Made by a program: the position numbers and the translations under genes. The notes under the pieces are model-generated. The model ran no database searches. It was not told the DNA's origin and saw only the letters and a program-made list of their open reading frames with translations. Source: Tetrahymena thermophila SB210 (taxonomy: Eukaryota > Ciliophora > Oligohymenophorea > Hymenostomatida > Tetrahymenidae). From it: 64,000 bases of DNA. Location of the stretch: the NCBI RefSeq assembly GCF_000189635.1, contig NW_002476372.1:100298-164297 (forward strand), read 5' to 3'. Positions 1 to 60,800 of the stretch are shown piece after piece (positions within the stretch are counted from its first letter, which is position 1; each line of letters begins with the position of its first letter).

Positions 1-168
1 CAGTTACTGAAGTAAATGAATTAAGTACAGAAGCAGATATATATAATGAAATGAGGTGATGCTTTAACTAATAATATTCTTGATGTTTGTTGTAATAGAC
101 CTTTCTTATTTACAATAATCTATATATCTACTCATACAATACTATTTTTTAGAATAATAAATGATTGA
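1..168 (+). pseudogene. Decayed 3' end of a serpin gene (relic 1)
   Basis: The window opens inside a sequence that matches the reactive-loop hinge and C-terminal strand of the three intact serpins downstream: a hinge-like VTEVNELSTEA, then after a frame break CNRPFLFTI and STHTILFF. An in-frame TGA and frameshifts between the two blocks rule out a functional product. It lies upstream of an intact serpin, as does a second relic near 2.9 kb, which suggests a tandem array with older, eroded members. The 5' part of the relic lies outside the window. Confidence 0.75.
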
Positions 169-964
169 TAAAATCTCAAATTATTGATTGATTATGAGTT
201 AACAATAAATTATTTTTTTAAAGTAAAAAATTTTATAAATAAGTGTATGAATGAATGAATAAATAAATAAATTTACATATTTAAAAAAATGATTTATTTT
301 AGTAAATATGTTTTTTTATTATAGAATTAAATAAATAAATAACTTTGTTTTTTTGAAAATATGAAAAGTTTATAGCATGAGACTATGTCAGGTTTTCTTT
401 TGAATTACGATTATAAGTAAATTGGATATGTTTAATTATTCTTTTGATTATTGTAGATGCTTGATGTAGAAGATTTTGTATGATCATAAATAAATTAATC
501 AATATTTATCGATTTTATTAATACATTGATTACTATATATTAATGAAGCGCAATACATTCTTTTTTGCTTGGAGTGCTTTAGAAAATATGTAAGAAAAAA
601 TTTTGAAGAAAAAATTTTTAGAAATAAAATTAGGCTCAAAAAGGTGAGGCTGGAATCCTACCAGAATTTAGTTAAAATTTGAAATAGATTCTCATGATTT
701 GAAAAGAAAACAAATCTTTTAATTTTATTGTAGAGGTAATCATATTGTAGACTGAATTTGATCATAAATTAATTAATATTTATCTATTTGATATAATAAA
801 ATATTGATTAACAATGTTTGATAAAAGATTTATAAAATTCTTATTTTTGATATAAAGATTAGGATTTATTTACTTATTTGTATAATTTATTAATTAAAAA
901 TAAAAATAAAAAGTGCATAATACATTTTACAAATATAGAAAGATAGATAAATATAAATAGAAAA
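169..964 (+). promoter_or_regulatory. Intergenic and probable promoter of serpin 1; part of a duplicated unit
   Basis: No gene is visible. The stretch from about 600 to 964 is closely repeated at about 5795-6162 upstream of the third serpin, so the upstream control region was duplicated with the gene. The stretch from about 180 to 480, with its TGAA/AAAT microsatellite, is repeated at about 3030-3360. No promoter element can be named with confidence. Confidence 0.5.
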
Positions 965-2086
965 ATGGACGTAAAATCTCATCCTATTAGCAACTTCTCT
1001 CTCAATTACTTTAAATTAATCTCTGAAAAAAATAACTTCTTCTTTTCCCCTGCTTCTATATACCTAGCATTAAGCTTAACTGCTGCTGGCTCTGCAGGTT
1101 AAACCCTCAAAGAATTCTAAAATGTATTAAATTTTTAGAATGTAGAAGAAATGGGAAAATAAATAAGTTCATTAAGTGAATAGCTTTAGCAATCTTCTTA
1201 GTCATTCACTGTTTCTTCAGCTAATAGAATCTATACCGGAGTTTCAGAAATAGTAAACGATTATAAATAATTTGTTGAAAAATATTATAAATCAGGATTT
1301 GAATAAGTTGACTTCAGCTAAACCGAAGCTGTTAGGTAAAACATAAACTAATGGGTCTCCAAACAAACAAGAGAAAAAATCTAAGAACTTTTACCAAAAG
1401 ATAGTATTAATGCTGCAACTAGAATGGTATTAGTAAATGCTCAATACTTAAAAGCAGATTGGCTAAACAAATTCCAAAGCAATAAAACAGCTGACTAATA
1501 CTTTTATCTTGAGCCAAACAATTAATAAAAAAAAGTAAAAATAAAAATGATGAGTAATGAAGGAATTTATGGGTATGGCAAGTTTAATGACTTTGAATAT
1601 GTTTAGCTTCCTTACTAAAATCTAAATTTTGCTATGGAAATATTTTTGCCTAGTAATAATATCTAAGATCTAGAGTCTTAATTAACTGCAGAATAAATGC
1701 AAAATGCTTTGAAAAAATCATAAAAGACTAATATAAAACTCTCCATTCCTAAGTTCAAAATGAGTGGAATCTCTCATAAAGTATTAGAGGTTCTAAAAAC
1801 TTTAGGGATTAATGAAGCTCTGACAGGTAATGCTGACTTCAGCAAACTATGTGAAACAGAGAGTCTTTTCATATCAGATGTAATTCATCAAGCAGTTATT
1901 GAAGTAAATGAATTAGGTACAGAAGCAGCAGCTGCAACAGCAGTTATTATGAAAAATTGTAGTCTTAAAGTTAATAAAACTCCTTTAATTTGTTGCGATA
2001 GACCTTTCTTATTTACAATCACTCATATTCCTACTCACACAATACTATTTATGGGAAGAATAACTGATCCATCAAAAATTAATTGA
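965..2086 (+). CDS. Serpin 1 (serine/cysteine protease inhibitor family)
   Basis: Single-exon ORF of 373 residues under the ciliate code, the usual length of a serpin core. Visible signatures in order are FSPASIYLALSLTAAG near residue 30 (helix B), FAMEIFLP, PKFKMSG, the hinge NELGTEAAAAT from about residue 315, and the C-terminal RPFLFTITHIPTHTILFMGRI. The small-residue hinge (GTEAAAATA) is that of inhibitory serpins, whose loop inserts into sheet A after cleavage. There is no signal peptide, so a cytosolic clade-B-like role is inferred, with unknown target protease. It is almost identical to serpin 3 except in the loop after AVIM, where 14 residues rich in Lys, Asn and Cys precede CDRPF. 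The start is the first ATG, MDVKSHP, shared with the paralogues. Confidence 0.93.
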
Positions 2087-2902
2087 ATAATAATATATAA
2101 ATAAATTAAAATTATTAACTTTTTAAGAGTTTTAATGAATGGAAAATGATTGAGCAATAGTATAAATCATTTTTTTTAATTAAAACTTTTTTATTTTTTA
2201 AGTATCAAATTAATAAATTTCTCATTTAAATATATTTCAACATTTTGTATGATTAAATAAAATTTTATTTTAATACTAGAAATATTTAAAGAATTATATT
2301 GCTTAATAATAAAGTATTTATTTCATAATAATGTATTTTTATTCAACATTGTATACATTTAACCAAATAATTTGTTTATTTTCAGCAAATTTAATTTTTA
2401 TTAATGAAGACGCATAGGGTGTTAAAATATAATATTAAACAAACATAAAAAATATTAAATGAATAAATATTTTCTGACAATGTGAATATTAACAACTTAC
2501 AAAATATTTATTTTGTTTTCAAAATTTTCTCTAAATAGTAAAAGTAAAAAGGATTAAACTAAAATTATATATCAAACAAAAAGTGCGTTTAATTCTAAAA
2601 TAAATCAAGCAATCTGATTTATAGAATCTATTTATTTTAAATATCTAAAGTTATTTAATAGAATTAATTTATTTTCTTAATAATTTTTTAATTTAATTAT
2701 TTTATTAAAATATTAAATAACTAATTTGATATAAATTTTAAAGATTATTTAGTTATCAAATAATAAAATTTATCAATAAAATAAGTATTTCGTTTTAAAA
2801 TAATATCTTTATTATGCATGTATATTTATGTCTGTTTATCTATCAGCTTTTTTTATTTATATATCAATAATCAATATGGGTAGAGTAGAATGAATCGTTG
2901 AA
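2087..2902. repeat. Spacer 3' of serpin 1, repeated 3' of serpin 3
   Basis: No gene is seen. The spacer is AT-rich and parallels 7282-8240, with matching blocks around 2400/7610 (a short GACG...ATAGGGTG block) and 2580-2890/7910-8230. The duplicated unit therefore extends well beyond the coding region. Confidence 0.6.
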
Positions 2903-2910
2903 ATTTTAAA

Positions 2911-3025
2911 TATATAATGATATGAGGTGTTACTATAATTAATACAATTTTTGAGGCTCTTTACAAGAACCCATATACTTATTAATACAATACTATTTTT
3001 GGATAGAATAAATGGTCAATAAAAT
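2911..3025 (+). pseudogene. Decayed 3' end of a serpin gene (relic 2)
   Basis: Short remnant alignable with relic 1 at 60-180: an ATATAATGA...ATGAGGTG block followed by the remains of the TNTILFF-type terminal strand and the same trailing ATAAAATCTCAAAT. It is more degraded than relic 1 and has no open frame. It is recognised mainly through relic 1. Confidence 0.5.
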
Positions 3026-3064
3026 CTCAAATGATTGATTGATTGATTCTGAATTAACAAGTGT

Positions 3065-3130
3065 ATGAATGAATGAATGAATGAATGAATGAATGAATGA
3101 ATGAATGAATGAATAAATAAATAAATAAAT
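3065..3130. repeat. TGAA/AAAT microsatellite
   Basis: An uninterrupted run of about a dozen TGAA tetramers grades into AAAT tetramers. A shorter version sits at about 243-275 in the homologous spacer, so the tract has expanded or contracted since the unit was duplicated. Confidence 0.9.
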
Positions 3131-3571
3131 TTACATATTTAAAAAATTTGATTATCTTAGAAAATATGTTTTTTTATTTCAGAATTAAATAAATAAATTT
3201 GCTTTTTTTGAAAATATCTAAACTTTAAAGAATTAGAATATGTAAGGTTTTTCTTTTGAATTACTATTGTAAATTGGATATAGATATTTTTAATTATCAA
3301 AAAATATCTTTTGATTACTGTAGATGCTTGAAGTAGAAGATTTTGTATGATCATAAATAAATTAATAAATATTTATCTATTTTCTTATATTAAGATATTG
3401 ATTATTATTATTGGAAGAGGAATTAATCAAAAAATTTCATTAAAAAATTACAAATATTTTTGATATTAATAGATGGTTAATCCTTATCTTTTCATTTGCA
3501 TAATTAATTAATAAATATAAATAAAAGATATCTCATTATTTTAAAATTAAAATTGAATACTAACAACGAAT

Positions 3572-4696
3572 ATGGACTTAAAATCTCATCCTGTTAGCAG
3601 CTTCTCTCTCAATTACTTTAAGTTAATCTCTGAGAAAAATAATTTCTTCTTTTCTCCTGCTTCTATATATCTAGCATTAAGCTTAACTGCTGCTGGCTCT
3701 GCAGGTTAAACCCTCAAAGAATTCTAAAATGTATTGAATTTTTAGAATGTAGAAGAAATGGGCAAATAAATAAGTTCATTAAACTAATAGCTTTAGTAAT
3801 CTTCCTAGTCCTTCACTATCTCTTCTGCTAATAGAATTTACAGTGGAGTTTAAGCAGTAACAAACGATTACAAATAATTTGTAGAAAAATATTTTCAATC
3901 AGGATTTGAAAATGTTAACTTCAACCAAGCTGAAGCTGTGAGGGAAAATATTAACGAATGGGTTTCCTAATAAACAAGAGAAAAAATTAAAGAGCTTTTA
4001 AAATAAGGCACTATCGATGCCTCAACTAGAATGGTACTAGTAAATGCTCTTTACTTAAAAGCAGACTGGTTATACAAGTTTTAAGGTAATAATACAGCTG
4101 ATAGATACTTCTACATTGAGCCAAACAACGAATAAAAAAAAGTTTTAACAAAGATGATGAGTAACTCAGCAACATATGGCTATGGCAAGTTTGATGGCTT
4201 TGAATATGTTTAGCTTCCTTACTAAAATAAAGATTTTGCTATGGAAATATTCTTGCCCAGCAATAGTATTTATGATCTAGAGTCTAAATTAACTGTAGAA
4301 TAAATGCAAAATGCTATGAATAATTCTTAAAAGACTAAAATAAAATTATTCTTGCCAAAATTTAAAATGAATGGAATTTCTCATAAAGCATTAGATATTC
4401 TACAAAACTTGGGTATTGTTGAAGCTCTAACTCCTTAAGCTAATTTTAGCAATTTGTGTTAAACTGAGAATCTTTACATATCAGATGTTATTCACCAAGC
4501 AGTTATTGAGGTGAATGAATAAGGAACAGAAGCAGCAGCAGCAACAGCAGTCCTTATGAGGGAAAGGTGTGCTTTAATAATTAATGAAACCCCTGAAGTC
4601 CATTGTGATAGACCCTTCTTATTTACTATTACTCATGTTCCTACTCACACTGTATTATTTTTAGGTAGAATAACAAATCCATAAAATATTAATTGA
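3572..4696 (+). CDS. Serpin 2
   Basis: Single-exon, 374-residue serpin, read codon by codon with no internal TGA. It has the same architecture as its neighbours: MDLKSHPVSSFSLNYF start, helix B FSPASIYLAL, FAMEIFLP, LPKFKMNG, hinge NEQGTEAAAATA, terminal RPFLFTITHVPTHTVLFLGRI. It is the most diverged of the three over the whole body. Its loop between AVLM and CDRPF is 15 residues, against 14 and 13 in the paralogues, and begins with an Arg/Glu/Arg/Cys cluster. There is no signal peptide, so an intracellular inhibitor is inferred. The specificity site (P1) cannot be fixed from sequence because the loop length varies. Confidence 0.93.
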
Positions 4697-6162
4697 TTGA
4701 ATAATTGATTAATTATTAATAGCACAATAATTGTTTTATAAAAATTAAAAAAATAATATGTATTTGTACTATAAATATTTTAGTTAAAATCGATTATTAA
4801 AGAAAATATAAAATTTTTAAATAAATAAATAAAGTATTTATTATTATTTTTGCTATAACTTTATTTTTTACTTTTTAAATAAAATAATATTTTTAGAATT
4901 TTTAATCGAATATATATCCTAAAATTAAATTTAAAAAGATTTTAAAATGAAAAAGTATGAAGAATATTTTTCAAATATTGTTAGGAAATATATTAAATAA
5001 TAGTTTTAAGATATTAGAAAATATTATTTTTGATTCAAAATATATCTTGAAAATTATATGTAATTTTTAATAAGTATCAGCAATAATAAATAGATTAGCT
5101 AGAATGAAATTTATACCAATAAAAATAGATTTTAATATAAAATTTAACTCTTTGTTAACTCTTTTTAAGTTTTATTTTTTTATTTTTTATTTTTAAAGTT
5201 TAATAAGTTGGCTAGCTATTCACATTCATTTTCGTTCATATAATTTGCAACTATTTATTTAATTATTACCATAAATCATCATTAATATAAGTGATTCATT
5301 TTTTATATAACTAAAGCTAAAAGTTAATATTGCATTTATAATTTTTTACTAATATCCAATAAATTATTCATTAATTTACATCAATAAAATTTATTCATCA
5401 ATCAGACAGAATTAAGATATTTTCACCATAAAAATAATCCATAAAAATATAATCAAAAAACTTAATCTAATTATTTATTATTTACCCGGATCTATCAATA
5501 ACATCAATTGAATTCCTCAAAAAATAGTAAACTATTATTGGCTTTACTTTTCATTTTCTATTTTTATTTATTAATTCATAATACTAACTATTTATTTATT
5601 TATTTTTGTAGATAAAAGTTTTCATAAATAAAACTATAATTCTTAAATAATAAATTTAAAATTATTTTTGTGTCTCTTCATTTTTTATTTTTAATATTAT
5701 TAAGTATATTCTACATTATTGTTAATCAAGACATACAGGGGGAGGGAAGCTAAAAATCAAATGGATCTATAAAAATCTATGATAACTCTTAAAAAGTTTT
5801 TAGAAATAAAATTATGCTCAAAAATTTGAGGCTGAAATCCTACCTAGTATTTAGTGAAAATTTGAAATAGATTCTCGCAATTTATAAAGAAAACAAATCT
5901 TTTAATTATTTATTGTAGAGGTAATTATATTGTAGACTCAAATTGATCATAAATTAGTTAATATTTATCTATTTGATATACTAAAATATTGATTAAGATT
6001 GCTTGATAAAAGATTTATAACTTAAATTAATATCATTCTTATTTTTGATATAAAGATTAGGATTTATTTACTTATTTGTATAATTTATTAATTAATAATA
6101 AAAATAAAAAGTGCGTATTAAATAATACAAATATAGAAAGATAGATAAATATAAATAGAAAG
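4697..6162. promoter_or_regulatory. Spacer between serpins 2 and 3, ending in a copied promoter region
   Basis: No gene is seen in 4697-5790, which is AT-rich apart from a short G-rich patch at 5740-5750. The stretch 5795-6162 is a close copy of 600-964 and immediately precedes the serpin 3 start, so it is probably the promoter/5' UTR duplicated with the gene. Confidence 0.5.
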
Positions 6163-7281
6163 ATGGACGTAAAATCTCATCCTGTTAGCAGCTTCTCTCT
6201 CAATTACTTTAAATTAATCTCTGAGAAAAATAACTTCTTCTTTTCCCCTGCTTCTATATACCTAGCATTAAGCTTAACTGCTGCAGGCTCTGCAGGTTAA
6301 ACCCTCAAAGAATTCTAAAATGTATTGCATTTTTAGAATGTAGAAGAAATGGGAAAATAAATAAGTTCATTAAGCGAATAGCTTTAGCAATCTTCCTAGT
6401 CCTTCACTGTTTCTTCAGCTAATAGAATCTATACCGGAGTTTCAGCAGTAGTAAACGATTATAAATAATTTGTTGAAAAATATTTTCAATCAGGATTTGA
6501 ATAAGTTGACTTCAGCTAAACCGAAGCTGTTAGGTAAAACATAAACTAATGGGTCTCCAAACAAACAAGAGAAAAAATCTAAGAACTTTTATCAAAAGAT
6601 AGTATTAATGCTGCAACTAGAATGGTATTAGTAAATGCTCTATACTTAAAAGCAGATTGGCTAAACAAATTCCAAAGCAATAAAACAGCTGACTCATACT
6701 TTTATCTTGAGCCAAACAATTAATAAAAAAAAGTAATGATAAAAATGATGAATAATGATGGAATTTATGGATATGGCAAGTTTGATAACTTTGAATATGT
6801 TTAGCTTCCTTACTAAAATCTAAACTTTGCTATGGAAATATTTTTGCCTAGTAATAATATCTAAGATCTAGAGTCTTAATTAACTGCAGAATAAATGCAA
6901 AATGCTTTGAAAAAATCATAAAAGACTAATATCAAACTATCCATCCCTAAGTTCAAAATGAGTGGAATCTCTCATAAAGTATTAGATGTTCTAAAAACTT
7001 TAGGGATCAATGAAGCTCTGACAGGAAATGCTGACTTCAGCAAACTATGTGAAACAGAGAGTCTTTTCATATCAGATGTAATTCATCAAGCAGTTATTGA
7101 AGTAAATGAATTAGGTACAGAAGCAGCAGCAGCAACAGCAGTTATTATGTCAAGAAGTGCTATGATTAATAAAAATCCAGAAGTTCGTTGTGATAGACCT
7201 TTCATATTTACAATCACCCATATCCCTACTCACACAATACTATTTATGGGAAGAATAACTGATCCATCAAAAATTAATTGA
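6163..7281 (+). CDS. Serpin 3
   Basis: Single-exon, 372-residue serpin whose body is nearly identical to serpin 1 (MDVKSHPVSSFSLNYF start, FSPASIYLAL, LAMEIF-type strand, PKFKMSG, hinge NELGTEAAAATAVIM, terminal RPFIFTITHIPTHTILFMGRI). The difference is concentrated in the reactive loop: 13 residues between AVIM and CDRPF, starting Ser-Arg-Ser-Ala-Met, against 14 unrelated residues in serpin 1. Upstream and downstream flanks are also shared with serpin 1, which implies a recent duplication followed by rapid change of the bait region. The product is inferred to be a cytosolic inhibitor; the target is unknown. Confidence 0.93.
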
Positions 7282-8393
7282 TTAATAATATATAAATAAA
7301 TAAATAATATTTTATAAATATTAAAAACTTTTAAGTGTATGAGTGAATGGAAAATGTTTGAATAATAGTAAAAAATCATTTTTTTTAATTAAAACTTTTT
7401 ATGTTTTAAGTATCAAATAAATAAATTTCTCTTTTAAATATATACTAACATTTTTTGATTAAATAAATGCTTTTTGTTTATAATAAAAATATTTAAAAAA
7501 TTATTTTGTTTAAGAATAAAAAGTATTTTTTGCAAAATAATAATTTTTTATTTAATATTCTGTATGTTTAAATAAATGATTTGTCTTGAATAAATTTAAT
7601 TTTTATTGATAAAGACGACATAGGGTGGTATATTATCCAAAAGTAAAAAATATTAAGGAAGAACCAAAATATTTAACTCTAAAAATTAAATGTTTGATTA
7701 AAAATTTAGATTTCTTCATCAAAAAATTAAATCTTTGATTAAACATTTTTTACTTATTTTTTTTGTTTGTTTGTTTATGTTCAAAGCCTATTTCGATATA
7801 TTCTTTATTATTTTATATTTTCATTAAATAATAATATTTACTATTATACTCCTTATTTATTTCCTACTAAAGAAATAATTATTAGAGAATTGCAATGCTT
7901 ATCTAACAAAAAATTATGTGTTAATTCTAAAATAAAACAAGCAATCTGATTTAGAGAATCTATTTATTTTAAATATCTAAATTTATTTAATATAATTAAT
8001 TTGTTTTTTATAAAACATTTTAAATTAATTATTTTATCAAAATATTAAATAACTAATTTGATAGCAATTTTAAAAGATTATTTCATTATTAAATAATAAA
8101 ATTTACCAATAAAATAAGGCTTTAGTTTTAAAATAATATCTTTATTATACGTGTATATGTCTTTTTATCTATCAATCTTTTTATTTTATTTATACATCAA
8201 AAAAAAAAATCTATAAAGGTATAGTAGAATGAATCATTAAAATATTGAAAAGATGAGAATTTAATTGTTGATTTAATTAATCAAAAAAGATATTTAGTTG
8301 CCAAATAATATATTTAATTAACTATGTGTTATTTAACATTAAAAAAAGTTAAAAAATTGTTAATTTTTGATATCTACTACTGAAAATTAAAAA
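7282..8393. other. Spacer between serpin 3 and the LRR gene
   Basis: 7282-8240 repeats the 3' flank of serpin 1 (2087-2900), ending in a trace of the relic-type block at about 8240-8260. Short runs open in the standard code (for example 7767-7949) are AT-driven noise. The promoter of the downstream gene must lie in the last 150 bases, but no motif is recognisable. Confidence 0.55.
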
Positions 8394-40816: not shown

Positions 40817-43800
40817 ATGCAAAGACTTCTAAATAAAGCATTTAAATAAACTTCACCTTCATTAGTTAGCAAGTAGGTGAATAACTTCGCTGTCATTTAT
40901 GGGCCTCTAGCTGATGTTAAGTTTGATCTTGAACACTTAAACAAGCAAAGCACAAAGATTTAACAATTCATCAACATATATCGTAAGCACGGTCACTAGT
41001 TTGCTTCTATTGATCCTCTTAATCTAGTTAACAGGTAAATTCTTAGCCATATTTCTATTCTATAATATATCTTCACTTTTCAGATCCACTTCCCTATCAC
41101 ATAAAATGTAAAAATCAAATAAAAAAATAACATTTTAAATCAAAAGATCTTCAGAATTTGTAAATCCACTTGATTTTGGTATTAAGTATACTGAAAACTA
41201 TTAGAAGGACATTGATAAAGATTCTTCTTACATTTCTACCCTTCCTGAAGCCTAGGAAGTAGCTTCATTAGAATAATACTTGAAGAGAGTCTACTAAGAC
41301 ACTGTCGGTGTAGAGTTCGAGCATGTCAACGATCCAGCTGAAAGAACTTGGCTTTACTATAATTTCGAAAGACACTAGCTGACTGAATTAACTAGCTTTG
41401 AAAAAGTTAACATCCACTCTCTTCTCAGTCAAACTGAAGCTTTAGATCATTTCCTACATAAGAAATTCTAAACTTTCGTAAAAAATACTTTTCAAAAAAT
41501 AAAAAATAACCATTCAACATTTGCTTATTCAAATAGAAAAGATATGCAGGTGAAGGAGCAGAGTCTTCTATTGTAGGTTTAAAAACTATCTTGGCCAAGG
41601 CTAGCGAAATGGGTGTAAAAATAAAAATTTTCTATTTTTTATTATTACGTTATCATATTAAAAACTGAAATAAACAATCAAATAGAATTTCATAAAAAAT
41701 TAATTAAACAGGGCTTAAAAATTAATAGTTTTATTTAAAAAAATATAGCAAATAAAAGAAAAAAGGAAATAATAAAGGAATTTGCATAAAAAAATATTAA
41801 AATTATTAATTTTTACAATAATATAAAAGCAGTTTATCAAATAGATTTTTCTTTTTTTTAATTATTAATTATTTAATGTTTAGGTTGAAGATGCAGTTAT
41901 TGGCATGCCTCATAGAGGTAGATTAAATGTTTTATGCAACTTATTAGATTATCCTGTTGCTGATTTACTTAGAAAGATTAGTGGACATCCTGATTTACCA
42001 AATGAGTTATACAACTATATTGATGATGTCGTCTCTCATATTGCAGTTTCAAAGAAAGGTAAATTATACGCTGGTACTGGCTGTAAAGAAAGACCTATTA
42101 ACGTTTCTTTACTTCATAATCCTTCTCATTTAGAAGCTGTCAATCCAGTTAGCATGGGTAAGGCTCGTGCTAAAATGGATGAAAAAACTAAAACAGAAGT
42201 CCTCAACATTTAATTGCATGGTGATGCTGCTTTTTCTGCTCAAGGTGTTGTTTATGAATCATTTGCTTTAGGAAAAGTTCCTAAATTCTCTGTTGGTGGT
42301 ACCATTCATATGATAGTCAACAATCAAATAGGTTTTACAACCAATCCTATTGATGGTAGAGGTGGTTTTTACTGCAGTGATATTGCAAAGGCTTTCGATA
42401 CACCTATTATCCATGTAAATTCTGATGATCCTGAAGCTATTCACAGAGTTTGCAAATTTGCTGTTGAATATCGTCAACGTTTCTAAAAGGATATTTTAAT
42501 CGATGTCATTGGATATCGTCGTTATGGACATAATGAACTTGATGAACCTGAATTCACTTAACCTCACATGTACAATCATATTAAAAATACCTAAAAGACA
42601 TGCCCTCAATTGTATGATTCCAAACTTATTGAATCTAAAATTGTAAAAGAAGGTACTTATTAAAAGATTAGAGAAAAAACCTTTGCCTATTGTGAGACAG
42701 AATTTGAAAAAATTCCTTCTATCAAAAAAACTGTTGAGGAATACAAAGCTGATAAGCATAATTCAGCATCTGCTTTCCGTTAAAACTGGAAAAATATGGA
42801 TTTCAGTTAGTATGGAGATAACAGTAGACCTACTGGCTATAATGCTGATATTTTACGTCAACTTGCAAGATAAAGTGTTGTGTTACCAAATGGATTTTAA
42901 GTTCACAACCGTTTACAAAAGAACTTCATCTAATCTCGTATGAAAGCTGTTGAAAACAACTCTCTTGATTGGTAAAAAAATAAAAACATTTTTTATTTCT
43001 TTAAAAATTATTTTCGATACTAACTTTCTAAATAAGTTTTAATATATAATAAATAAACACTCCTTATAGATTTATAGATGAATAAATAAATTTAATTTAA
43101 ATAATTAAATAAATAGGGCAACCTGTGAAGCTTTAGCTGCAATGACTTTGTTGGAAGAAGGTCACACTATCCGTTTCACTGGTGAAGATGTTGAAAGAGG
43201 TACTTTTTCTCAAAGACATTGGGTATTCACTGATTAAATTACTCACAAGCACTGGAATCCTATTTAAGTAAATTATAATTAAAATTTAAAATAGTCAATC
43301 AATAAAAATTTATATGTAGGAGTTATATGAAGGCTTCAACAAAGGTAAATTGTATGTATATAACAGTCCTTTAAGTGAAATCGGTGCTCTTTCTTATGAA
43401 TATGGCTATTCTTTGGAGTCTGAAAGAATCTTTTCTATTTGGGAAGCTTAGTTTGGTGATTTTAACAACAGTGCTTAAGTAGCAATTGACACTTTCTTGA
43501 CTTGCAGTGAACATAAATGGGCTAGATAATCATCTCTAACTCTTTTATTGCCTCATGGTATGGATGGTGCTGGTCCTGAACACTCCAGTTGTCGTATGGA
43601 AAGATTCTTATAAATGGGTAACACTGATGGTATTGACAGAAATCTCACTTACGCAGGATACAATCCTAATAGAAGTCCCTCAAAAGTAGAAGATCAATAA
43701 TTCTACATGAGCCACTAAGATGTTAACTTCTAATTAATTAATCCAACCACTCCTGCAAACTATTTCCATGCTTTAAGAAGATAAATGCACAGAAATTACA

Positions 43801-47671: not shown

Positions 47672-48372
47672 TTATTAGTTAATTAATTCTTTCATTAATA
47701 TTTTTCTTCTTATTACAAATTAATTGGAGATTTTAATTTTTATAAGCACATTTTCTATCTAATTCTATCTTCAACTTTCTATAATATGAATCAAAATGAT
47801 TCAATCAATAATTATCATTAATAACATTTAATTTTTAGTATTAGCAATTTAAAATAAAATAATTTTAAGATTATTAATTATTCTTCATATTTAATAATCA
47901 CAATAAATAATGCTCAAAGCATAAACATAATTTAATATGAATATATTAATCAGTTGAAATAATTTTATTGATTTATTGAAAAGAAAATTTTAAATAATAT
48001 TATTGATTACCATAGTTTAATTTATTTAAATATAAATATAAAATACAAATATAAACTAATATCTTATGCTAATATCTCAAAAAAACTTAAATAACTACTT
48101 TCTCTAAAGAAAGTTTGAATATAACTATTCGATACTTTAGTTAAATTATCAAAAATACCATCCTTTTAAAAAAAATTTATATTCTATTCATTAATAACAT
48201 TGCTTTGAATTGTAGGAGGGTAGAATTTTTTGGATTATAATTTTTTAATGTTATATTGATTTTTTAAATTGAAATATCCTTAAACGATCAAACAATTAAA
48301 ATTTTTAATTTAATTTCATTTAATATAATAAAATAAGTTGAAAGCTTAGTAACAGCCAAGACTGTTAAAAAA
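47672..48372. other. Intergenic region
   Basis: AT-rich spacer. The last 45 bases before the next start are open in its frame, so the true ATG or an upstream exon could lie slightly further 5'. Confidence 0.4.
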
Positions 48373-50404
48373 ATGAATGAAGATTTCAAAGCTAACAAAC
48401 ATAAGATTTTTAAAGAAATAGAAAATGCTGCTGATGAATATTTAAATAAATTACAACTAAAAAGAAATTTACTAGAACTCTTTTCTCAAAGTAATACAAA
48501 TAAGTACGAAGAACTTGAACAGCTAAAGAACTGGAGATAGCAAAATTCTAAGAAAATACTGAAGGAATAGTAAGAAAAACACATGCATTAATATCAATTT
48601 GAAAAAGAATAAAAAGAATTAGAGTAAGAAATAAAGAAATAAAGGCTACTTTAAAGTAGACTTATGAGAAATAGCATGGATAACATTTCAAATACCAATT
48701 CAAAATAGGAAAATAGTTCATCTGTTGAAAATATTAAAAATAATTATTTCACTTCGGCTTAGAGATTGCAATCAAATTCATTAAGCTATAATAAAAATTT
48801 TAGTTTATAACAACCTTCTATTATCGGACAGTTTCTCAAAAAAGAAATGAGTTCTCCATCAATTTTTACTTAGTAAAGGAATTTAAATTCAATAAACACA
48901 TAGAATGGATATGGTATCATTAACAATATTAACCCAAAATCATTAAGTATCCCTTTCAGTAATTAAAATAATATAAACTTCAACTAAAATACTACAAATT
49001 CAACAATTTTGCATGTAAGCAGGACTTCAATGACTGATTATAACTCGATTCTTGGAAATACAACAAATATAGGAAAATAGGCTTAAATCACTTAGAGCTA
49101 TTAAAATTAAAAGCCACATAGAACAAATATTTTGTAAAGAAAGCAAACTGATGGACTATTAACAGCTAAGGGAGGCTAGAGATACATTGAAGATTACATG
49201 AATATAAATGGAACTGCTTCATCAACAGCTACTACTTCAAATTCAAACAAAATTAATAATTTATTCTCACCGTAAAAGAATAAGGGCTTCCATCTTCCTT
49301 AGAATATTTCGCAAATTGGACCTTACGGATAAAAGGTAGTTGATCTTGATCATAAAAATAATAATTAAAAATAGACATCAGAGTCTAAAAGGAAGAATTA
49401 TTAAAAAAATGAAGTAGATTAATTATCAAAATCTGCTTTAATTGAACAAAGTAAACAAGATGATCAATAAAACTAGAAGTAAAAGGAAAATTAAAAAATA
49501 ACAATAAATTACCTGAACAAATCTAAAATTATTAATGAGCATAATAAGCAAAACAAGTAAACGATCTTCTTGAAAGATTTATATGATTTATATTCACAAG
49601 AAGAGTTATATAGAAACACAAACTAGCTTCGTACTAGAAGTAAAATGCTTGTATCAGATAAAGAGAACTTATAAAACTTTTACAAGAGTGAATATGAATA
49701 CAAAATAATTAAAAGAAATGCCAATTCATAAACAGACAGATAAAATTCATTCTATAAAACAGAAGGAGATAAATCAGTAAGCACTCTGGCTATTCCAGAA
49801 ATAAAGTAAAATAGAGTGAAAAGTGAGTCTAATTGTTTAAATTCTACCAATATGAATAAGCAAAACTACTATCAAATATAAGGTCACAACCAAAATGAAG
49901 ATAGCTTGATTGAAAAAAGTAACAGTTAAAATTTCAACAACATGAAAAATAATAACAATAATTTGGATGATTCTGAAAGTGGAGACTCTTCATTACCTTC
50001 TATCACTGAAGCTTAGCTGGATTCATATTATTCTCAAAGTAAACATATCTAAAAAATGATACTAAAAACAAAAGGAAATACCTAGCTATTTGCAAGGAGA
50101 ATGAAGAATGTTATTAAGCTTAAAGAAATTAATGAGTAAGTTATTTATTTATTTCACTACTTAACCAATAAAATAATATTAAAAAAAAGATATAAACTTT
50201 AAAAAATTCAACTTTCATTGATTTTAAATAATTTAGTTAATAACTTTTGTAAAATGCTTTTTATTTAAATAAAATAAATTTTAATAAAGAGCTTTTACAA
50301 TTTAATAATTTTTTTTCTTTCTTAATTTGAATTTAATATTTAATAGGGGTATTAATAAATGTACAAAGATGAAGTTGAATCACAAAAGCATTAAAAATTA
50401 TTGA
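48373..50404 (+). CDS. Asn/Ser/Gln-rich orphan protein with N-terminal coiled coil
   Basis: Two exons, 48373-50135 and 50347-50404, giving 606 residues. The N-terminus (residues 1-95) is a strongly charged helix likely to form a coiled coil (EELEQLKNWRQQNSKKILKEQ..., FEKEQKELEQEIKKQRLL). The rest is low complexity, rich in Asn, Ser, Gln and Thr, with a Ser/Asp segment DDSESGDSSLPSITEAQLDS near the end and a short basic C-terminus (INKCTKMKLNHKSIKNY) encoded by the second exon. No known domain was recognised. Its last 670 bases, including the intron and final exon, are duplicated as a pseudogene at 55675-56348. Confidence 0.75.
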
Positions 50405-51355
50405 TTTTTCTTAATAAAAATTTGAATATTAGACTAAAATTATTTTAAAGTATTAAATAAAAATAAATATGTAAATAATCAATCAATCACAAATATACAA
50501 ATAATTTCTTTTTAACAAAAATAAGTTAATATTAAAACTACTTTTTCCTCTTTAAATTAAATAAAATAATTTAAGATAAAAAATATATTAAAGATAAATA
50601 AATAAACTGTAAAAATTGAAATGAACTTCAATTGCTTCCTTGCTTTTATGTTTATAAACCAAATTAATAAAAGTAATAAAAGCATTTATTTTTTTGTACA
50701 CTTATTTAATGTATAATTATTCTTCAAAACAGATAAAATTTAAAATATGATAGTCTTATTTCAAATTTTTGCAATTCTTTAGATTGGTTGTTTGTTTGCT
50801 CTGCTAGATTAAAAATACTTCAAATAATTTAGTAAAATCATTATAAAATATTCGATTGTTTTAATAACAGAAAGATATATATTTCATTAGTTGAGTATGT
50901 CTTCCTTACTATATATTAAGCTAAATATATCAAAAATGATAAAAGATTTTTAAATAAATACAAAGTATTATTTTTAGAATCATAATCTTATTAATTTTCA
51001 CAATAAAATACATAAAATCTTTTACTAAAATTTTTTGCTGCTCAAATTATTAAATTTGATTAAAAGGGAGATTCAAGCATTTGCTAGCAATTTTTATAGT
51101 GAGAATTTTGTATTTATTAATTTAAGACTATTGTCTTTTAAATTAGGATGAATTATGAAATAATTTGTTTTTTTTTTTAATTCTAGAAAGTATTTAAAAA
51201 TACAAAATTTGCCCCTACCAAAAGTTTGAAATTTTTACATTAAAATTAAAATAAAATACCAATTTTTTTTATTAATAGGAAAATCATCATTAATAAATCT
51301 ATTATAATTATTTTTATAATTTATTTGTTGCTGTTAAAAATATGTCAATTTAAAT
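50405..51355. other. Spacer of duplication copy 1, upstream of the inserted element
   Basis: No gene is seen. It matches about 56349-57220 in copy 2 over most of its length, with small indels only, including the block around AATGAACTTCAATTGCTTCC and the TTTGCCCCTACC patch at 51207. Confidence 0.5.
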
Positions 51356-51581
51356 TATAGTGAGAGAACTTAACATCCATCCGGGATATTTTGTCACAGA
51401 TATAGATATGGAAAATCATTTAATTTTTTTATTGTGAAATGAGTACGATTNNNNNNNNNNNNNNNNNNNNNNNNNNNNNNNNNNNNNNNNNNNNNNNNNN
51501 NNNNNNNNNNNNNNNNNNNNNNNNNNNNNNNNNNNNNNNNNNNNNNNNNNTCCCGGATGGATGTTAAGTTCTCTATAATGA
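51356..51581. mobile_element. Terminal-inverted-repeat insertion spanning an assembly gap
   Basis: A 23-bp sequence GAGAACTTAACATCCATCC... at 51364-51386 is present as a perfect reverse complement at 51551-51573. Outside the inverted repeats lie near-identical 8-bp direct repeats, TATAGTGA (51356-51363) and TATAATGA (51574-51581), as expected of a target-site duplication. Copy 2 of the segmental duplication has a single TATAGTTT followed by the same CATC flank at about 57216-57227, so it shows the empty site. Sixty-four bases of interior are visible on the left; the rest is hidden by the N run. Eight-base duplications are typical of hAT- and P-type transposons, but without the interior the class is unknown. 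A retained internal eliminated sequence is the alternative. Confidence 0.8.
51451..51550. other. Assembly gap (100 N)
   Basis: Exactly 100 N, the conventional placeholder for a gap of unknown size. It ends just where the right inverted repeat becomes readable, so the inverted repeat could extend further inside. Confidence 0.99.
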
Positions 51582-52212
51582 CATCTAAATGATTAAAAAA
51601 CTATATTTTTTCTGGCATATTTCAATAATTAAAGTTATTGAATTATTTATAAGAATAGGATTCATCTTCTTTTGTTAATTTGTGTAACTAAAATTTTTTA
51701 ATTAACAATAATACATAAAAGTCGTCATATAATAATAACTTAAATTAAAATTGCTTATTTTTTATTTTCACTAGAAAAAAATATTACTAGATTTTTATAA
51801 ACAAAAAATTCAAATATATATTTCTTTTATTTTACGTTTGGTATTAATTTTAGTTTTAAAATAGAATACAATCTTTATAATTATAAATATTAATCAATAA
51901 AATAAAATTGCTTATGAAAAGATGCAATTTTAATTAAATTAAGTTCAATAAAATATTCAAAAATTTAAAGAATAGAAAGGTTCTGATAAAAAATAATTAT
52001 TTACATTAAATTAAATACGTCATATTCATATTTTAATTACTTCATTTTTATCTAATCCTTATAAAAATAGAGCTATTTCTGACGATTACACTACTTTACT
52101 TTATCAATATTTTTATGATATTTTTTGTTATAGAAATATAAATATATAATAATTTTTTTTTTTAATTCAGATAAAAAGTAAACTAATTAAATAAATCATT
52201 CAATAAATAGAA
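51582..52212. promoter_or_regulatory. Upstream region of cysteine-rich gene 1
   Basis: AT-rich; parallels about 57222-57871 upstream of the paralogue, with a conserved block around AAAAATAGAGCTATTTCTGA (52063 and 57710), so shared promoter/5' UTR elements are likely in the last few hundred bases. Confidence 0.5.
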
Positions 52213-55200
52213 ATGGTTTAATAATAGATTATATGCTTAATAATCTGTCACTCAATTTTTAGAATTTGCTTTGCTTAAACTTATTATGTAAATATGCCTA
52301 ATTAAAATATAACAATTTAAAATGTTGATCTCATTGACATAAATACAACAGTTGTTTTGAATTAATAAATAAATAATTGCCCTTTCATAAAGAATTATTT
52401 GATAAGCACTAATATGGTTGATCACCATTATCATTAACCAAATCAGTTTAATGTTAGTATGACATAGAGTGGAAGCTAGGTTACTTTTAGTATAACAAAT
52501 GAAAATGAGATAAAATTTTAAGTGGCTGAAATTTGTTTAGAGGATGTGTATGTCTAATAAGTATCAATAAAAAATCCTATATTTGATTAAAATAAATAAT
52601 TTTTATATTAAGATCTTCCTCCTAATTTTAATATAGAAATGAAAGCTGTTGCTTTCTTAACAGGGTATGTTTCAAATCAAAATGCAATTATAAGTTTATT
52701 CTTAGATTAAGTAATTATTGCTAATTAAAATGGATTTTCTTTTCAATTTTTTACCTAGTCTACAGTAAATATCTAAGAAATAAATTTTAATTATATCTAT
52801 TTCCCTAGCAATTACTTACAAAACTATTTTAATCTACAATCTTTTTAAGATCAATAGCTCTAATTTAATTCAAATACGCATCAAGCAAATCTAAGTATTT
52901 TAACAAACTCAAGTACTTTAATAGGAATAAATGGATTTTCTTTGTGCTATGAAAGTTAGTGTGATGGGGTAAGAATGTAAGTTATTTTATACAATGATAA
53001 TTTTTATTATTGGACATGGTGGACTTCTTAAGTTTATGCAATAGGGAGCTAATTTTTATAATTTCAAATGTAAAATTGCTAGCTTAGTAATTAAATCAAT
53101 TAAATTAATTACAATAATTAATGTGTTCCATAATGTCCAGATGAATTTTATATGGCATAAGACCCATTAATAAATATAAAAATATGCATAAAATGTCCTG
53201 AAGAATGCTAACTATGCTAGGATGCTGATACTTGTTTAAGCTGTTAACAAGACTATCCTTTTTTATATAAAAATTTTTGTTATAGGTAATAATAGGACAA
53301 TACTCAGTGCTAATAGATTGATAATGAATATTACTAATGCAAAGACTGTTAATCTAACTGCCCATTTTATTGTGATATTAATGATAAGTGCACATAATGC
53401 CCAGAAGGCATGGAAAGTATTAATTTTAAATGCTAATGCAAGCAAACTACTGGACTAAAAAATGGAATTTGTGTAGCTTGTGAAATTTAAGGTTGTTTAA
53501 ACTGTGCTGAAAATAGTTCATCTTGCTCATAATGTTAATAAGATATGTATTTAAGTCAAAATTAATGCTTTTGTTCGAACTAATCTTTCTATTTTAGCAG
53601 TTTTTTAGGTTAATGCGTAGAATTAAAGAATTGTTAAAAGGCCAACTAATTTTAGCCAGCATGTTTGGATTGCTTGTAAGGATTTTTAAGAAATGATGGA
53701 GTTTGTTTGTACTGTGAAAAGTAATTTTTTTTAATTCATATTAAAAATAAATTTTAACATTTAAAATTTGAATAAAATTTTAATATGTTTTATTTTAGAT
53801 AATATAAATTTAATAAATAATTTATGTTATTTTACAATTAATAATTGATTAATATTCAAATATCAATTATTTGCTGTTTAATATCTTCTATTTTTAAATT
53901 GATTTTTTTAAATAATTTTTAAAAGTGGAAAATATGCAGATTCAAATAACAATTGTAGTTTAAAGTGTCCCTAATATTGTTAATTATGCAGTAATAGCAC
54001 ATCTTGTGTGGAGTATTATTAAGACATTCCTTGCTACTATACTTGTTCTCAATGCTCAATGCCAGGTTCTGTAAATTCATGCACTTCTTGCATTTCTAAT
54101 ACAAGATTTTTAAACTAAACTTCGAATACATGTGATTGTTTAGCAGAATATGAAGAAATAGGTTAAGTAGACTGCTAAAAAATTGCTGATAATATTAGTA
54201 GCTAATAAATAAATTTTATTGAAAACTATTTCTATACCTCTTTCTATATTTAAATTCCTTTTATTTTTCTACCAATATATACTCACTAATAATATTCATT
54301 TAAGCTTTAATAAGTAATTGGAATTTTGGGATTATTATAAGCAACAAATAATAAGAATTTAAGAATATAAGCTATGAGTAATTATAACATTTACAATTTT
54401 TATAATTTTTCCTATGGAGAAATAAGCTAATAGTCAAATACTTTACTAATGTATTTAGAAATCTACTCTATTATTTATTTAGCCTTCTTTTTAGTTACTT
54501 TGGTATTAAAAATCACAAGAGTCAATAAAAGCAAATTTACTATTTTGAGATTAATATAAGATAATTCATTTATTACTTGTGGTAGATTTCTTTCCACTTT
54601 TAGTATTTTCTTGTTAATTCACTGTTTTGATTATTTAATAGAATAGTAAAAACTAACTTTAGTATTTTTGACAGTCTTACTTACAATGTACTTGTTTTAT
54701 TTGATAAATATTTTAATAGTAGTTTACTAAATCTGGAAGAAAGAAAGGCAGGTTGTATTTGGTACTAGTGAAGATTTTATTTAAGAATAGATTGAAGCTA
54801 AATTTAAATTTTAAATATTAACCATGAATATCTGTTAAAAATAATCATTAAGAACTTTAATTTGGATATTTCTGGAGCTTCGATAAATTGCTACTATTTT
54901 TCTGCTAAACTACTTTAAAAATAGCTATATAGGATTTGTTTCTGTATTTGGAATTAGTATTTTGTTTTTGATACTTCATCTCTACTATAGATACTTTAGC
55001 ATTAGTAGCCATCATATTTTTGTAGTATCTGCTGAGATAAAATTCTTAATTATTTTAATACTAAACACAGTTTTAACATTACTTCAATAGCCTCAATAGT
55101 AATAAAGTATATCAATTTACCCAAAGTTAACTATTTTAGATATACTGAATATCTCACTATTAATTATATGGCAGTCAATAAATATATTACTATCGGTTTA

Positions 55201-55366
55201 CACATATTATAGATTAATATAATAAATAATAAAATTATACTCTAATTAAAATAGTAAGAATTTTTCAAAGTCTGAAATACCTGAATTCCCAATAGAATTA
55301 AATGAAAGTAAATTTAAAACCTTAATTTAATTTAAAATAAAAATATATTTTTATTTAAAATATTGA
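52213..55366 (+). CDS. Cysteine-rich polytopic membrane protein (paralogue 1)
   Basis: Two exons, 52213-53720 and 53926-55366, 982 residues. A hydrophobic N-terminus (IICLIICHSIFRICFA) may be a signal peptide. About 300 residues of extracellular-type domain follow, then some 250 residues of CxxC-type repeats (CPEECQLCQDADTCLSCQ, CPQYCQLCSNSTSC, CSQCSMPGSVNSCTSC) like growth-factor-receptor/furin cysteine-rich modules. The C-terminal half has about seven to eight hydrophobic helices (YSIIYLAFFLVTLVLKI, LVFLTVLLTMYLFYLINILIVVYQIW, FVSVFGISILFLILHLYY, IKFLIILILNTVLTLL). The layout is that of a large surface or vacuolar membrane protein family common in ciliates; ligand and function are unknown. 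An 8-bp-flanked insertion lies 0.6 kb upstream. Confidence 0.9.
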
Positions 55367-55674
55367 TTTTAAAAATACTTTTTAAACAAATATAAGGTAA
55401 TATAAACTAAATACTAAGCCAGACTCTCAGTAAGAAATAATATTTATCCAGAATAAATAAAAATTTATGATATTTGTTTTTATATTTTTATATTCTAAAA
55501 ATCTATAATCAATTAATTTCTATATTTTATTATTTATTTTAACACCATAAATCCCTTTATTTTAACACAGACCCTTGATTAATATTTTTTTAGAAATTAG
55601 TTCTTTTTTTAAATTTAATATTTTTAAGATTTCAGTTTTTTAAAAAGTTTTAGATCATTAATTTAATGGGTAAT
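55367..55674. other. 3' flank of paralogue 1 and duplication junction
   Basis: 55367-55597 matches the 3' flank of paralogue 2 (61178-61432). 55598-55674 is unique and represents the join between the two copies. No gene is seen. Confidence 0.5.
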
Positions 55675-56348
55675 AGATAAAATTCATTCTATAAAACGGA
55701 AGGAGATAAATCAGTAAGCACTCTGGCTATTCCAGAAATAAAGTAAAATAGAGTGAAAAGTGAGTCTAATTCTTTAAATTCTTCCAATATGAATAAACAA
55801 ACAAAGCTATTATCAAATATAAGGTCACAACCAAAATGAAGAAATCTTGATTGAAAAAAGTAACAGTTAAAATTTAAAAAACATGAAAAATAATAACAAT
55901 AATTTGGATGATTCTGGAAGTGGAGACTCTTCATTACCTTCTATCACTGAAGCTTAGCTGGATTCATATTATTCTCAAAGTAAATATATCTAAAAAACGG
56001 TCCTAAAATAAAAGAAAGGAAATACCTAGCTATTTGCAAGGAGAATGAAAAATCTGATTAAGCTTAAAGAAATTAATGAGTAAGTATTTTATTTATTTCA
56101 CCACCTATTAAAAAAAAGATATAAACTTTAAAAAATTCAACTTTCATTGATTTTAAATAATTTAGTTCATAACTTTTGTAAAATACTTTTTATTTAAATA
56201 AAATAAATTTTAATAAGAGCTTTAAATTAAAGTGGTTTAAAAATTTATTAATTTTTTTCTTCTTCTTAATTTGAATTTAATATTTAATAGGGGAATTAAT
56301 AAATGTACAAAGATGAAGTTGAATCACAAAAGCATTAAAAATTATTGA
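55675..56348 (+). pseudogene. Truncated duplicate of the 3' end of the orphan gene at 48373-50404
   Basis: Copies the last part of the orphan gene, including its Ser/Asp segment, intron (GTAAG...TTTAATAG) and final exon with the same TGA. A 4-base net insertion near 55798 shifts the frame, followed by an in-frame TGA about 14 codons later, and the 5' two thirds are missing. An ATG (ATGGGTAATAG) fortuitously precedes the fragment at 55666, but the frame breaks make a product unlikely. Confidence 0.85.
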
Positions 56349-57871
56349 TTTTTCTTAATAAAAATTCGAAAAATAAATAAAAATTATTTTAAAGTATAAA
56401 ATAAAAATATGTAAAAAAAAAAAAAAAATAAACAAATACTTTCTTTTTAAAAAAAATAAGTTATATTAAAACTAATTTTTCCTCTTTAAATTAAATAAAA
56501 TAATTTAAGATAAAAAAATATATTCAAGATATAAAAATAATTAGTAAAAATTGAAATGAACTTCAATTGCTTCCTTGCTTTTATGTTTAGAAACCAAATT
56601 ATTAAAAGTAATAAACATAATAATTATTTTTTTTGTACACTATTTAATGTAAAATTATTCTTCAAAACTGTGTTTAAAATATAATAGTCTTCTTTATTTA
56701 AATTATGATTGGTTGTTTGTTTGCTTTGTAATTGAAATAATTTTGTAAAATCATTATAAATATACTATCGCTTTAATAAAACAAAAGTAAATGTTTCATA
56801 AGTTGAGAATGTCATCCTTACTGTATATTAAGCTAAATATATCAAAAATAATAAAGGAAATTTATAAATGCAAATTAATATATTTTTAGTTTTATAATCT
56901 TAATAATTTTCTCAATTAAATAAATACAATTTTTTACTGAAATTTTTTTGCTTCCAAATTATTTTTATAGAGAGGCGGAATTTTTTATATATTAATTTTA
57001 AGACTACAGTCTTTTAAATTAGGATGAATTGTGAAATAGTTCGTTTAATCTTTAAAAATTAATTGAAAATAAAAAATTTGCCCCTACCCTAACTTTGAAA
57101 ATTTCACTTTAAAAACTAAAATGAAAAACCAAATTTATAGATTAATAGGAAAATCATCATTAATAAATCTATTATAATTTATTTGTTGTGGTTAAAAATA
57201 TGTCAATTTAAATTATAGTTTCATCCAAACAAATCACAACTATATTTTTTATGGCATATTCATATTTCAATAGTTAAAATTATTGAATTATTCATAAGAA
57301 TATGTATGATTCATCTTCTTTTGTAAATTTATGTAACTAAATTTTTAAAAATCAATCATATTGCATAAAAGTCGTCATATACTAATAATATAAATTAAAA
57401 CTAATTATTTTTGATTTTTACACTTTTAGAAAAAAATTTTTTTCAAACAAAAAATATAAATATTAGTATTTATTTTATGTTTCGCATTTATTTTAGTTTT
57501 AAAATAGAATATCCTCTTTATATTTAAAAATATTAATTGATAAAAAAAAATTAATTATGAAAAGATGTGATTTTATTATCAAGCTCTATAAAAAATTCAA
57601 TAATTTAAAAATTAGAAAGGTTCTGATAAAAAATTATTATTTACATTAAATTAAATTCGTCATAATCATCACATTTAAATTACCTAATTTTTATCTAATC
57701 TTTATAAAAATAGAGCTATTTCTGATGATTGCGCAGCTCTATTTTAAAAAATTGATCTATGTTTAATTATTTTTATGATATTTTTTATTATAAAAATATA
57801 TAAATAATAATTAATATACTTCTTTTAATTCAGATAAAAAGTAAACTAATTCATTCAAAAAATAAATAGAA
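56349..57871. promoter_or_regulatory. Spacer upstream of cysteine-rich gene 2 (empty-site version)
   Basis: No gene. Homologous to 50405-52212 but lacking the inverted-repeat insertion; the empty site is at about 57216-57227. A poly(A) run lies at about 56413-56428. The promoter of paralogue 2 should lie near its 3' end. Confidence 0.5.
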
Positions 57872-60800
57872 ATGATTTAATAATAGATTATATGCTTTAT
57901 AATCTATCACTCAATTTTTAGTATATGCTTTGCTTAACCTTATTATATAAATATACCTAACTAAAATGTTACTATTTAAAATTTTGACCTCACAAATTCT
58001 AATACAAGTGCTGTTATAAATTAATAAATAAATAATTGTCTTTTCTAAAAGAATTATTTGATAAGCATTTCATTTATTGATCACTTTTATCACAATCCAA
58101 ATAAGTTTAATGTTAGTAAGACATAGAGTGGAAGCTAGGTTACTTTTAGTATAACAAATGAAAATGAGATTAAATTTTAAGTGGCTGAAATTTGTTTAGA
58201 GGACGTGTATGTCTAATAAGTATAAATTAAAAATCCTTAATTTGATGCAAATAACTATCTTTTACATACAGATCTTCCTCCTCATTTTAATATAGAAATG
58301 AATGCTGTTGCTTTCTTAACAGGGTATGTTTCTAATCAAAATACAAATTTAAGTTTATTTTTGGATTAAGTAACTACTAATTAATATGGATTTTCTTTTC
58401 AATTTTTTACCTAATCTACAGCAGATATTAAAGAAATAAATTTTAATTATATTTACTTCCCAAGCAATTACTAGCAAAGCTATTTTAATCTACAATATTT
58501 CAAAGATCAATAGCTCTAATTTAATTCAGATTTACATCGCTCTTGGCAACCTGTGTTCACAAGCTCTAATACTTTAATTGGAATAAACTAATTTACTGTA
58601 TGCAATTGGAAATGTGATGGGGTTAGAATGTTAGTTACTTTTGACTAATAGACTAATAGTTTTAATTATTGGACATGGTATGTTTCTTATATATATGCAA
58701 TAGGAGGCTAATCTTTATAATTTTAAATGAAAAATTGCTTGCTCAGTCATTAAATCTAGCATATTAATTATAATAATTAATGTGTTTCATAATGTCCAGA
58801 TGGATTTTTTGTAGCATAAGATCCATAAATAAATATAAATATATGTAAAAAATGTTCTGAAGAATGTTAATTATGCTAGGATGCTCTTACTTGTTAAAGT
58901 TGTTAGCAAAACTACCCTTTTTTTTATAAAAATTTTTGTTATAGCCATTAATAGAACAACACTCAGTGCTAATAGATTGATAATTATTATTATTAATGTA
59001 AAGACTGTTAATCTAGCTGCCAATTTTTTTGTGATATTTATGATAAGTGCACATAATGCCCAATAGGCATGGAAAGCATTAATTCTTAATGCTAATGCAA
59101 GCAAACTACTGGACTAAAAAATGGACTTTGTGTAGCTTGTGAAGTTTAAGGTTGCTTAAACTGTGCTGAAAATAGTTCATCTTGCTCATAATGTTAATAA
59201 GATATGTATTTAAGTCAAAATTAATGCATTTGTTTGAATTAATCTTTCTATTTTAGCAGTTTTTTAAGTAAATGCGTAGAATTAAAGAATTGTTAAAAAG
59301 CCAATTAATCTTAACCAGCATGTTTGGAATGTTTATAAGGATTTTTAAGAAATAATGGAGTATGCTAGTACTGTGGAAAGTAATTTTTTTTTTCACATTA
59401 AAATTAAGTTTTAATTTTTTTAAAAAAATAATAATTTTCTTGGTTTTAAAAGCTCAAGAAACGATCGATATTCATGTATAAATTTTATATTTAATAAAAA
59501 TTAAATAAAACTACAATAAAAATTTTGTGAGTTGTGAGCACCAAACTTAAATTATCTTAAAAATGAAATTTTAATATCTATTTTATTTTAACAAATATAA
59601 ATTATACATTATGTTATTTTTTAAATAGTAATTTAATCAATATTCTAATATTAATTATTGACAACTTAATATCTTCTATTTTTTAATTAGCTTTCTTTTA
59701 TATTTTTGATAATTTATTATTTTAAATAATTTTTAAAAGTGGAAAATACGCAGATTCAAATAACAATTGTAGTTTAATGTGTCCCCAATATTGTTAATTA
59801 TGCAATAATAACACATCTTGTGTGATGTTTAATTAAGACATTCCTTGCTATTATACTTGTTCTTAATGCTCAAAGCCAAATTCTGTAAATTCATGCACTT
59901 CTTGCATTTCTAATACAAGATTTTTAAATTAAACTTCAAATACGTGTGATTGTTTAGCAGAATATGAAGAGATAGGTTAAGTAGACTGCTAAAAAATAGC
60001 TGATAACATTAGTAGCTAATAAATAAATTTTATTGAAAATTATTTCTATGCCTCTTTCTATATTTAAATTCCTTTTATTTTTTTACCAATATATACTCAC
60101 TAATAATATTCATTTAAACTTTAATAAGTGATTGGAATTTTGGGATTATTATAAACTACAAATAAAAAGAATATGAGAATATAAGTTATGAGTAATTATA
60201 ACATTTACAATTTTTATAATTCTTCCTATGGAGATATAAATTAATAGTCTAATGCTTTATTAATGTATTTATAAATCTACTCTATTATTTTTTTAGCCTT
60301 CTTTGTAGTTACTTTGGCATTAAAAATCATAAGAGTCAATAAAAGCAGATTTGTTATTTTGAGATTAATATAAGATAACGCATTTATAACCTGTGGTAGA
60401 TTTCTTTCCACTTTTAGTATTTTCTTGTTAATTCACTATTTAGATTATTTAGTATTGTAGTAAAAACTATCTTTAGTATTTTTGGCAGTCTTACTTTCAA
60501 TGTATTTGTTTTATTTGATAAATATTTTACTAGCAGTTTACTAAATCTGGAAGAAAGAAGGGTAGTTAGTATTTGGTACTTGTGAAGATTTTATTTAATA
60601 ATAGATTGAAGGGAAATTTAAATTTTAAATATTAACCATGAATATCTGTTAAAAATAATCATCAAGAACTTTAATTTGGATATTTCTGGAGCTTAGATAA
60701 ATTACTACTATTTTTCTGCTAAACTACTTTAAAAATAGCTATATAGGATTTGTTTCTGTATTTGGAATTAGTATTTTGTTTTTGATACTTCATCTCTACT

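Follow-up and report, generated by a model that had tools for sequence, protein, structure and literature searches.

Fold-back elements and MITEs are short, non-autonomous DNA elements. The insertion described here resembles them in being short, in having two inverted ends and a target duplication, and in leaving no room for a gene. It differs from them in that one paired copy was found, the dispersed relatives are single-ended, and no transposase partner is known. The repeat family from which the insertion derives also recalls SINE-like retroposons: it is dispersed, it has a constant end, and several copies end in short tandem repeats. Unlike such retroposons, the copy studied here has no tail, single copies lack convincing target duplications, and there is no known RNA parent (Rfam). 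We take the assembly carrying the insertion to be macronuclear (somatic). The T. thermophila macronucleus keeps ~1 Mb of transposon-related sequence, with some instances biased to terminal regions, according to PMC5182062. Relative to the transposon ends described there, our insertion is likewise a germline-type insertion in a somatic assembly, but carries no evidence of an excised interior. More broadly, the somatic genome of this ciliate, said in PMC2612030 to be low in repeats, has a dispersed family of short repeats.

An insertion with an empty paralogous site

The window, i.e. the whole stretch of DNA analysed, is the last 64 kb of a contig of 164,297 bases, in an assembly of 101,022,631 bases and 445 contigs; reading frames were assigned with ciliate code 6. 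The window's sole run of N (51451-51550, 100 N) is enclosed by a perfect inverted repeat. The initial annotation gave this repeat 23 bp; it was right that the repeat is perfect and surrounds the gap, and the actual length is 24 bp (51363-51386 with 51551-51574), the outermost base being also part of the direct repeats described below. On either side of the gap, the window has no other perfect inverted repeat of at least 16 bp that spans up to 300 bp. At 16 bp, simulated sequences (five per length) gave 0, 2, 0, 1 and 1 perfect inverted repeats, and at 18 bp they gave none; hence, the 24-bp repeat is not due to chance.

The inverted repeat is flanked, as had been claimed, by 8-bp direct repeats, TATAGTGA at 51356-51363 and TATAATGA at 51574-51581, although these are identical at only 7 of 8 bases. 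Two more 8-mers with no more than one mismatch to TATAGTGA occur inside 51001-52000, at 51095 (exact) and 51430 (one mismatch). As an 8-mer alone, TATAGTGA/TATAATGA is therefore weak evidence, and the weight falls on its exact flanking position together with the empty site, which are strong evidence.

The empty site, also proposed initially, is borne out by collinear alignment. The paralogous spacer, 5.9 kb away, reads AAATTATAGTTTCATC, with TATAGTTT at 57214-57221 followed by CATC, and has no insert. The two spacers are collinear on the left (49738-51361 versus 55675-57219, 82.9% identity) and on the right (51599-53797 versus 57238-59448, 83.5% identity). A genome-wide search with the right flank returned two matches, itself and the paralogue, and no third copy; the left flank returned seven. 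One of these seven is the left flank itself, and among the rest only the paralogue is near full length. Thus, two features of the DNA transposon/MITE class are present: inverted termini (24 bp perfect, 55 bp inferred) and a target duplication with an empty site (7/8 bases, paralogue collinear). An in-frame ATG of the first duplicated gene, at 52213, lies ~0.63 kb downstream of the end of the insertion. A Pfam search of both paralogous frames gave no match, and a tRNA search of the window found none.

The termini belong to a dispersed repeat family

A search of the genome for the inverted repeat, suggested in the initial annotation, revealed many other copies; the refuting outcome named there, a repeat with no further copies, did not occur. 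Nor is the repeat a transposon terminus peculiar to this locus. Both arms match the AGAG end of a dispersed family with units of 140-290 bp. The left-side query alone gave 16 matches; with further queries, we compiled at least 43 places in the genome, including the window, from searches that score best candidates only. Of the 42 places outside the window, 34 were read as sequence and eight are known as search rows only. The AGAG start is at the aligned position in 28 of the 34 copies read (motifs were picked by eye), and is absent, or its region is missing, in the other six (L037, L038, L040, L084, L087 and L088). The flanks outside the aligned unit differ between loci, except at five of 26 (L012, L014, L015, L025 and L040), which adjoin related tandem repeats (period roughly 340-360 bp).

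Copies fall into three loose groups that have in common the end and an inner block, ATATCCATA. Group A units are 230-290 bp long, and six of eight (L009-L013 and L015) have at their end 8-bp tandem repeats of the form ACTTNNNN, the unit varying by copy; L082 has a short 8-bp tandem tail of the ACTTNNNN type as well. Groups B and C stop near 140-160 bp. The family could be a set of RNA genes or a mobile repeat. We recognised no paper as describing it, and we do not claim that the family is unpublished.

Two outward-facing ends occur in the window only, i.e. at one of the 43 places compiled from these lower-bound searches. None of the other 42 compiled places shows paired ends: the nearest neighbours on opposite strands are 88 kb apart, and the nearest on the same strand are 307 bp and 6 kb apart. 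A 12-base test of 23 loci detected no second inverted end; L083 and L085 have short TCTCT ends, without matching 8-bp flanks. Target duplications at single copies are not above background, since a near-matching 8-mer lies 140-164 bp from the end in 5 of 23 copies, and the other 31 bins of 25 bp score 0-5, with two of them also reaching 5.

The sequence reverses ahead of the gap

The left arm (51363-51417, 55 nt, forward strand) is the AGAG end of the family in the sense orientation. It is followed by 29 nt (51418-51446, reverse strand) that are the reverse complement of the family sequence just inside the arm, and then by GATT (51447-51450, reverse strand), the first four bases of the right arm, which pair with AATC at 51414-51417. 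Beyond the gap is the outer 24 bp of the right arm (51551-51574, reverse strand). When reverse-complemented, the 33 bases before the gap (51418-51450) match L012 and L013 with no mismatch, and L009, L010 and L011 with one mismatch in 33. This match starts with the four bases at the inner end of the left arm. The reversal, in other words, precedes the gap.

The 27 bases at 51387-51413 of the left arm have no visible partner. In L009 and L010, exactly these 27 bases come next after the 33-base match. If the stem is continuous, the gap would contain 27 bp, the remainder of the right arm, and the insert would be 139 bp long, with arms of 55 bp and a loop of 29 nt. A content of 26 bp is also possible because this stretch is one base shorter in L012 and L013. 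A run of exactly 100 N is a common placeholder for a gap whose size is not known. The 139-nt strand is predicted to fold with -61.2 kcal/mol (DNA parameters), compared to -8.7 ± 2.4 kcal/mol for 200 mononucleotide shuffles. The 27 gap bases in this calculation were set by the complement of the left arm, so that the mid-stem pairs are there by construction; hence, the fold describes the behaviour of the inferred molecule and does not prove its existence.

The initial annotation read the locus as a transposon-like insertion or a retained internal eliminated sequence. Our results agree with it on the insertion as such, on its short target duplication and on the empty site in the paralogous spacer. 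They do not support a larger DNA transposon spanning the gap, since the sequence reverses direction ahead of it and single ends are what the other 42 compiled places show (34 read, eight as search rows). Such a transposon is also unnecessary if ~27 bp of continuous stem is all that is missing. To judge from the flanking letters, the gap most likely hides only that much stem and not a whole jumping gene. A palindrome alone is enough to explain an assembly break, and we infer that it caused this one, without a transposase-bearing interior or a retained internal eliminated sequence. The cause of the confirmed insertion is more ordinary than first proposed: it is a palindromic copy of a short repeat. 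A short palindrome thereby replaces a transposon in the gap, and with it comes an exact prediction, a gap content of ~27 bp.

Origin of the double end

Both arms carry ATCC twice (CATCCATCCGGG), whereas the copies compared have it once. A 20-base pattern around this duplication has a single genomic match with two mismatches or fewer, in the left arm, in searches that score best candidates only; the right arm's copy of the pattern extends into the gap. Since both arms have the same private duplication, two independent insertions are unlikely, and the double end is likely to have arisen in one event. Overall, we consider it probable, in terms of both structure and origin, that the locus contains a fold-back of a predicted 139 bp, with two inverted AGAG termini of the dispersed family. 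It would have been inserted with an 8-bp target duplication into the spacer of the first of the two duplicated genes, either later than the gene duplication or in a single copy. If both arms do derive from one end in one event, the locus bears on the origins of fold-back elements.

How was the fold-back inserted? Outward-facing paired ends with an 8-bp duplication are as expected from a cut-and-paste enzyme. Our preferred mechanism, which we put forward tentatively, is that the fold-back was mobilised by its two ends. An enzyme recognising the exact AGAG end of the family would have acted on a molecule with that end on both sides, and this double-ended molecule would have been joined to a cut staggered by 8 bp. 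With no room for a gene, the element is probably an inert passenger. Against this account, target duplications at other copies do not exceed background, there is no second fold-back among the compiled places, and no microhomology is evident by reading at the inner junction.

Alternatively, the two sides of an 8-bp staggered break may have captured the same RNA or DNA end in a single event, by two-sided priming or joining, yielding a perfect fold-back from a family whose copies normally have one end. The locus would then be a snapshot of the birth of an inverted-repeat element. We regard this route as unlikely, if conceivable.

We think it rather unlikely that the arms are the ends of a germline DNA transposon with long terminal inverted repeats, whose interior was excised in the macronucleus as an internal eliminated sequence, the excision borders lying inside both ends, such that the ends were joined. 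Excision of this kind would account for the arms, their common private duplication and the target duplication, and also for the unequal inner junction, where the left arm ends at nt 55 and the right stretch starts further in. The idea stays alive because PMC5182062 reports that the T. thermophila macronucleus retains terminal remnants of transposons. However, paired ends are restricted to the window among the 43 compiled places, and the L009 and L010 units stop at the same base on the inner side, with a repeat tail, which looks like the end of a unit and not a random excision border.

We consider two-sided reverse transcription improbable. Each end of a staggered break would have served as a primer on an RNA with the 3' end ...GTTCTCT, and the two resulting cDNAs, with the same exact end and truncated at ~55 and ~84 nt, would have been joined. 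This would explain the exact common end at both borders, the unequal inner ends and the presence of one private duplication in both arms. Nonetheless, there is no Rfam match and no transcript is known; the copy-specific 8-bp repeats at the other side of the units would fit a tail there instead; and the ends of several family groups lie close to one common point, which gives no evident sign of random truncation.

It is doubtful that we are dealing with a family of small non-coding RNA genes, with the window copy as a rearranged pseudogene. The suggestion comes from a strongly conserved, upstream-like block, TATGGATATTTAAAGGTATGTA, which looks like a promoter and whose distance to a more variable, structured body changes rather little. 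A search with the upstream-block pattern gave 21 matches, compared to 11 with a reversed control pattern. We kept 15 (14 with at most two mismatches, and one on C60 with three); four with three mismatches were dropped after inspection, and L069 and L070 were left unviewed. Some copies form hairpins (-15.9 kcal/mol for L024, -11.8 kcal/mol for L027) in which the sides have changed and still pair. However, RNAalifold found no common pair. The stem of one group has 62.2% paired cells versus 31-51% in slid versions, but changes on both sides occur in only one of eight pairs, and 36 of 500 shuffles reach the stem's score. Rfam searches gave no match at the element, be it in 14 loci (E up to 10), in 12 loci (E up to 5; a single tRNA in L038 lies away from the element) or in window positions 48000-56000 (E up to 1). 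Lastly, the ACCCATAAAA/ACCATAAAA box seen here upstream of U2 and telomerase RNA, which we take to be the PSE, is not at the matching place.

An assembly artefact, in which two contig ends, each with a copy of the repeat, were wrongly scaffolded, would explain why the gap is exactly at this site, but is highly improbable given that both flanks align collinearly to the paralogue and have matching target duplications at their ends.

Other observations

Nine matches to U2 snRNA exceed the cut-off, at C329:199766-209036 and C3:47902-48695; five of them represent a divergent variant (99-104 bits versus 146-150) clustered at C329:205-209 kb. A telomerase RNA match is on C67 and appears to agree with the T. 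thermophila sequence. Elsewhere in the window, positions 41896-42849 are part of a dehydrogenase E1 gene (PF00676, E 1.1e-49), and positions 109-8281 contain a second duplicated set, in which, for example, 609-2458 and 5791-7656 are 90% identical.
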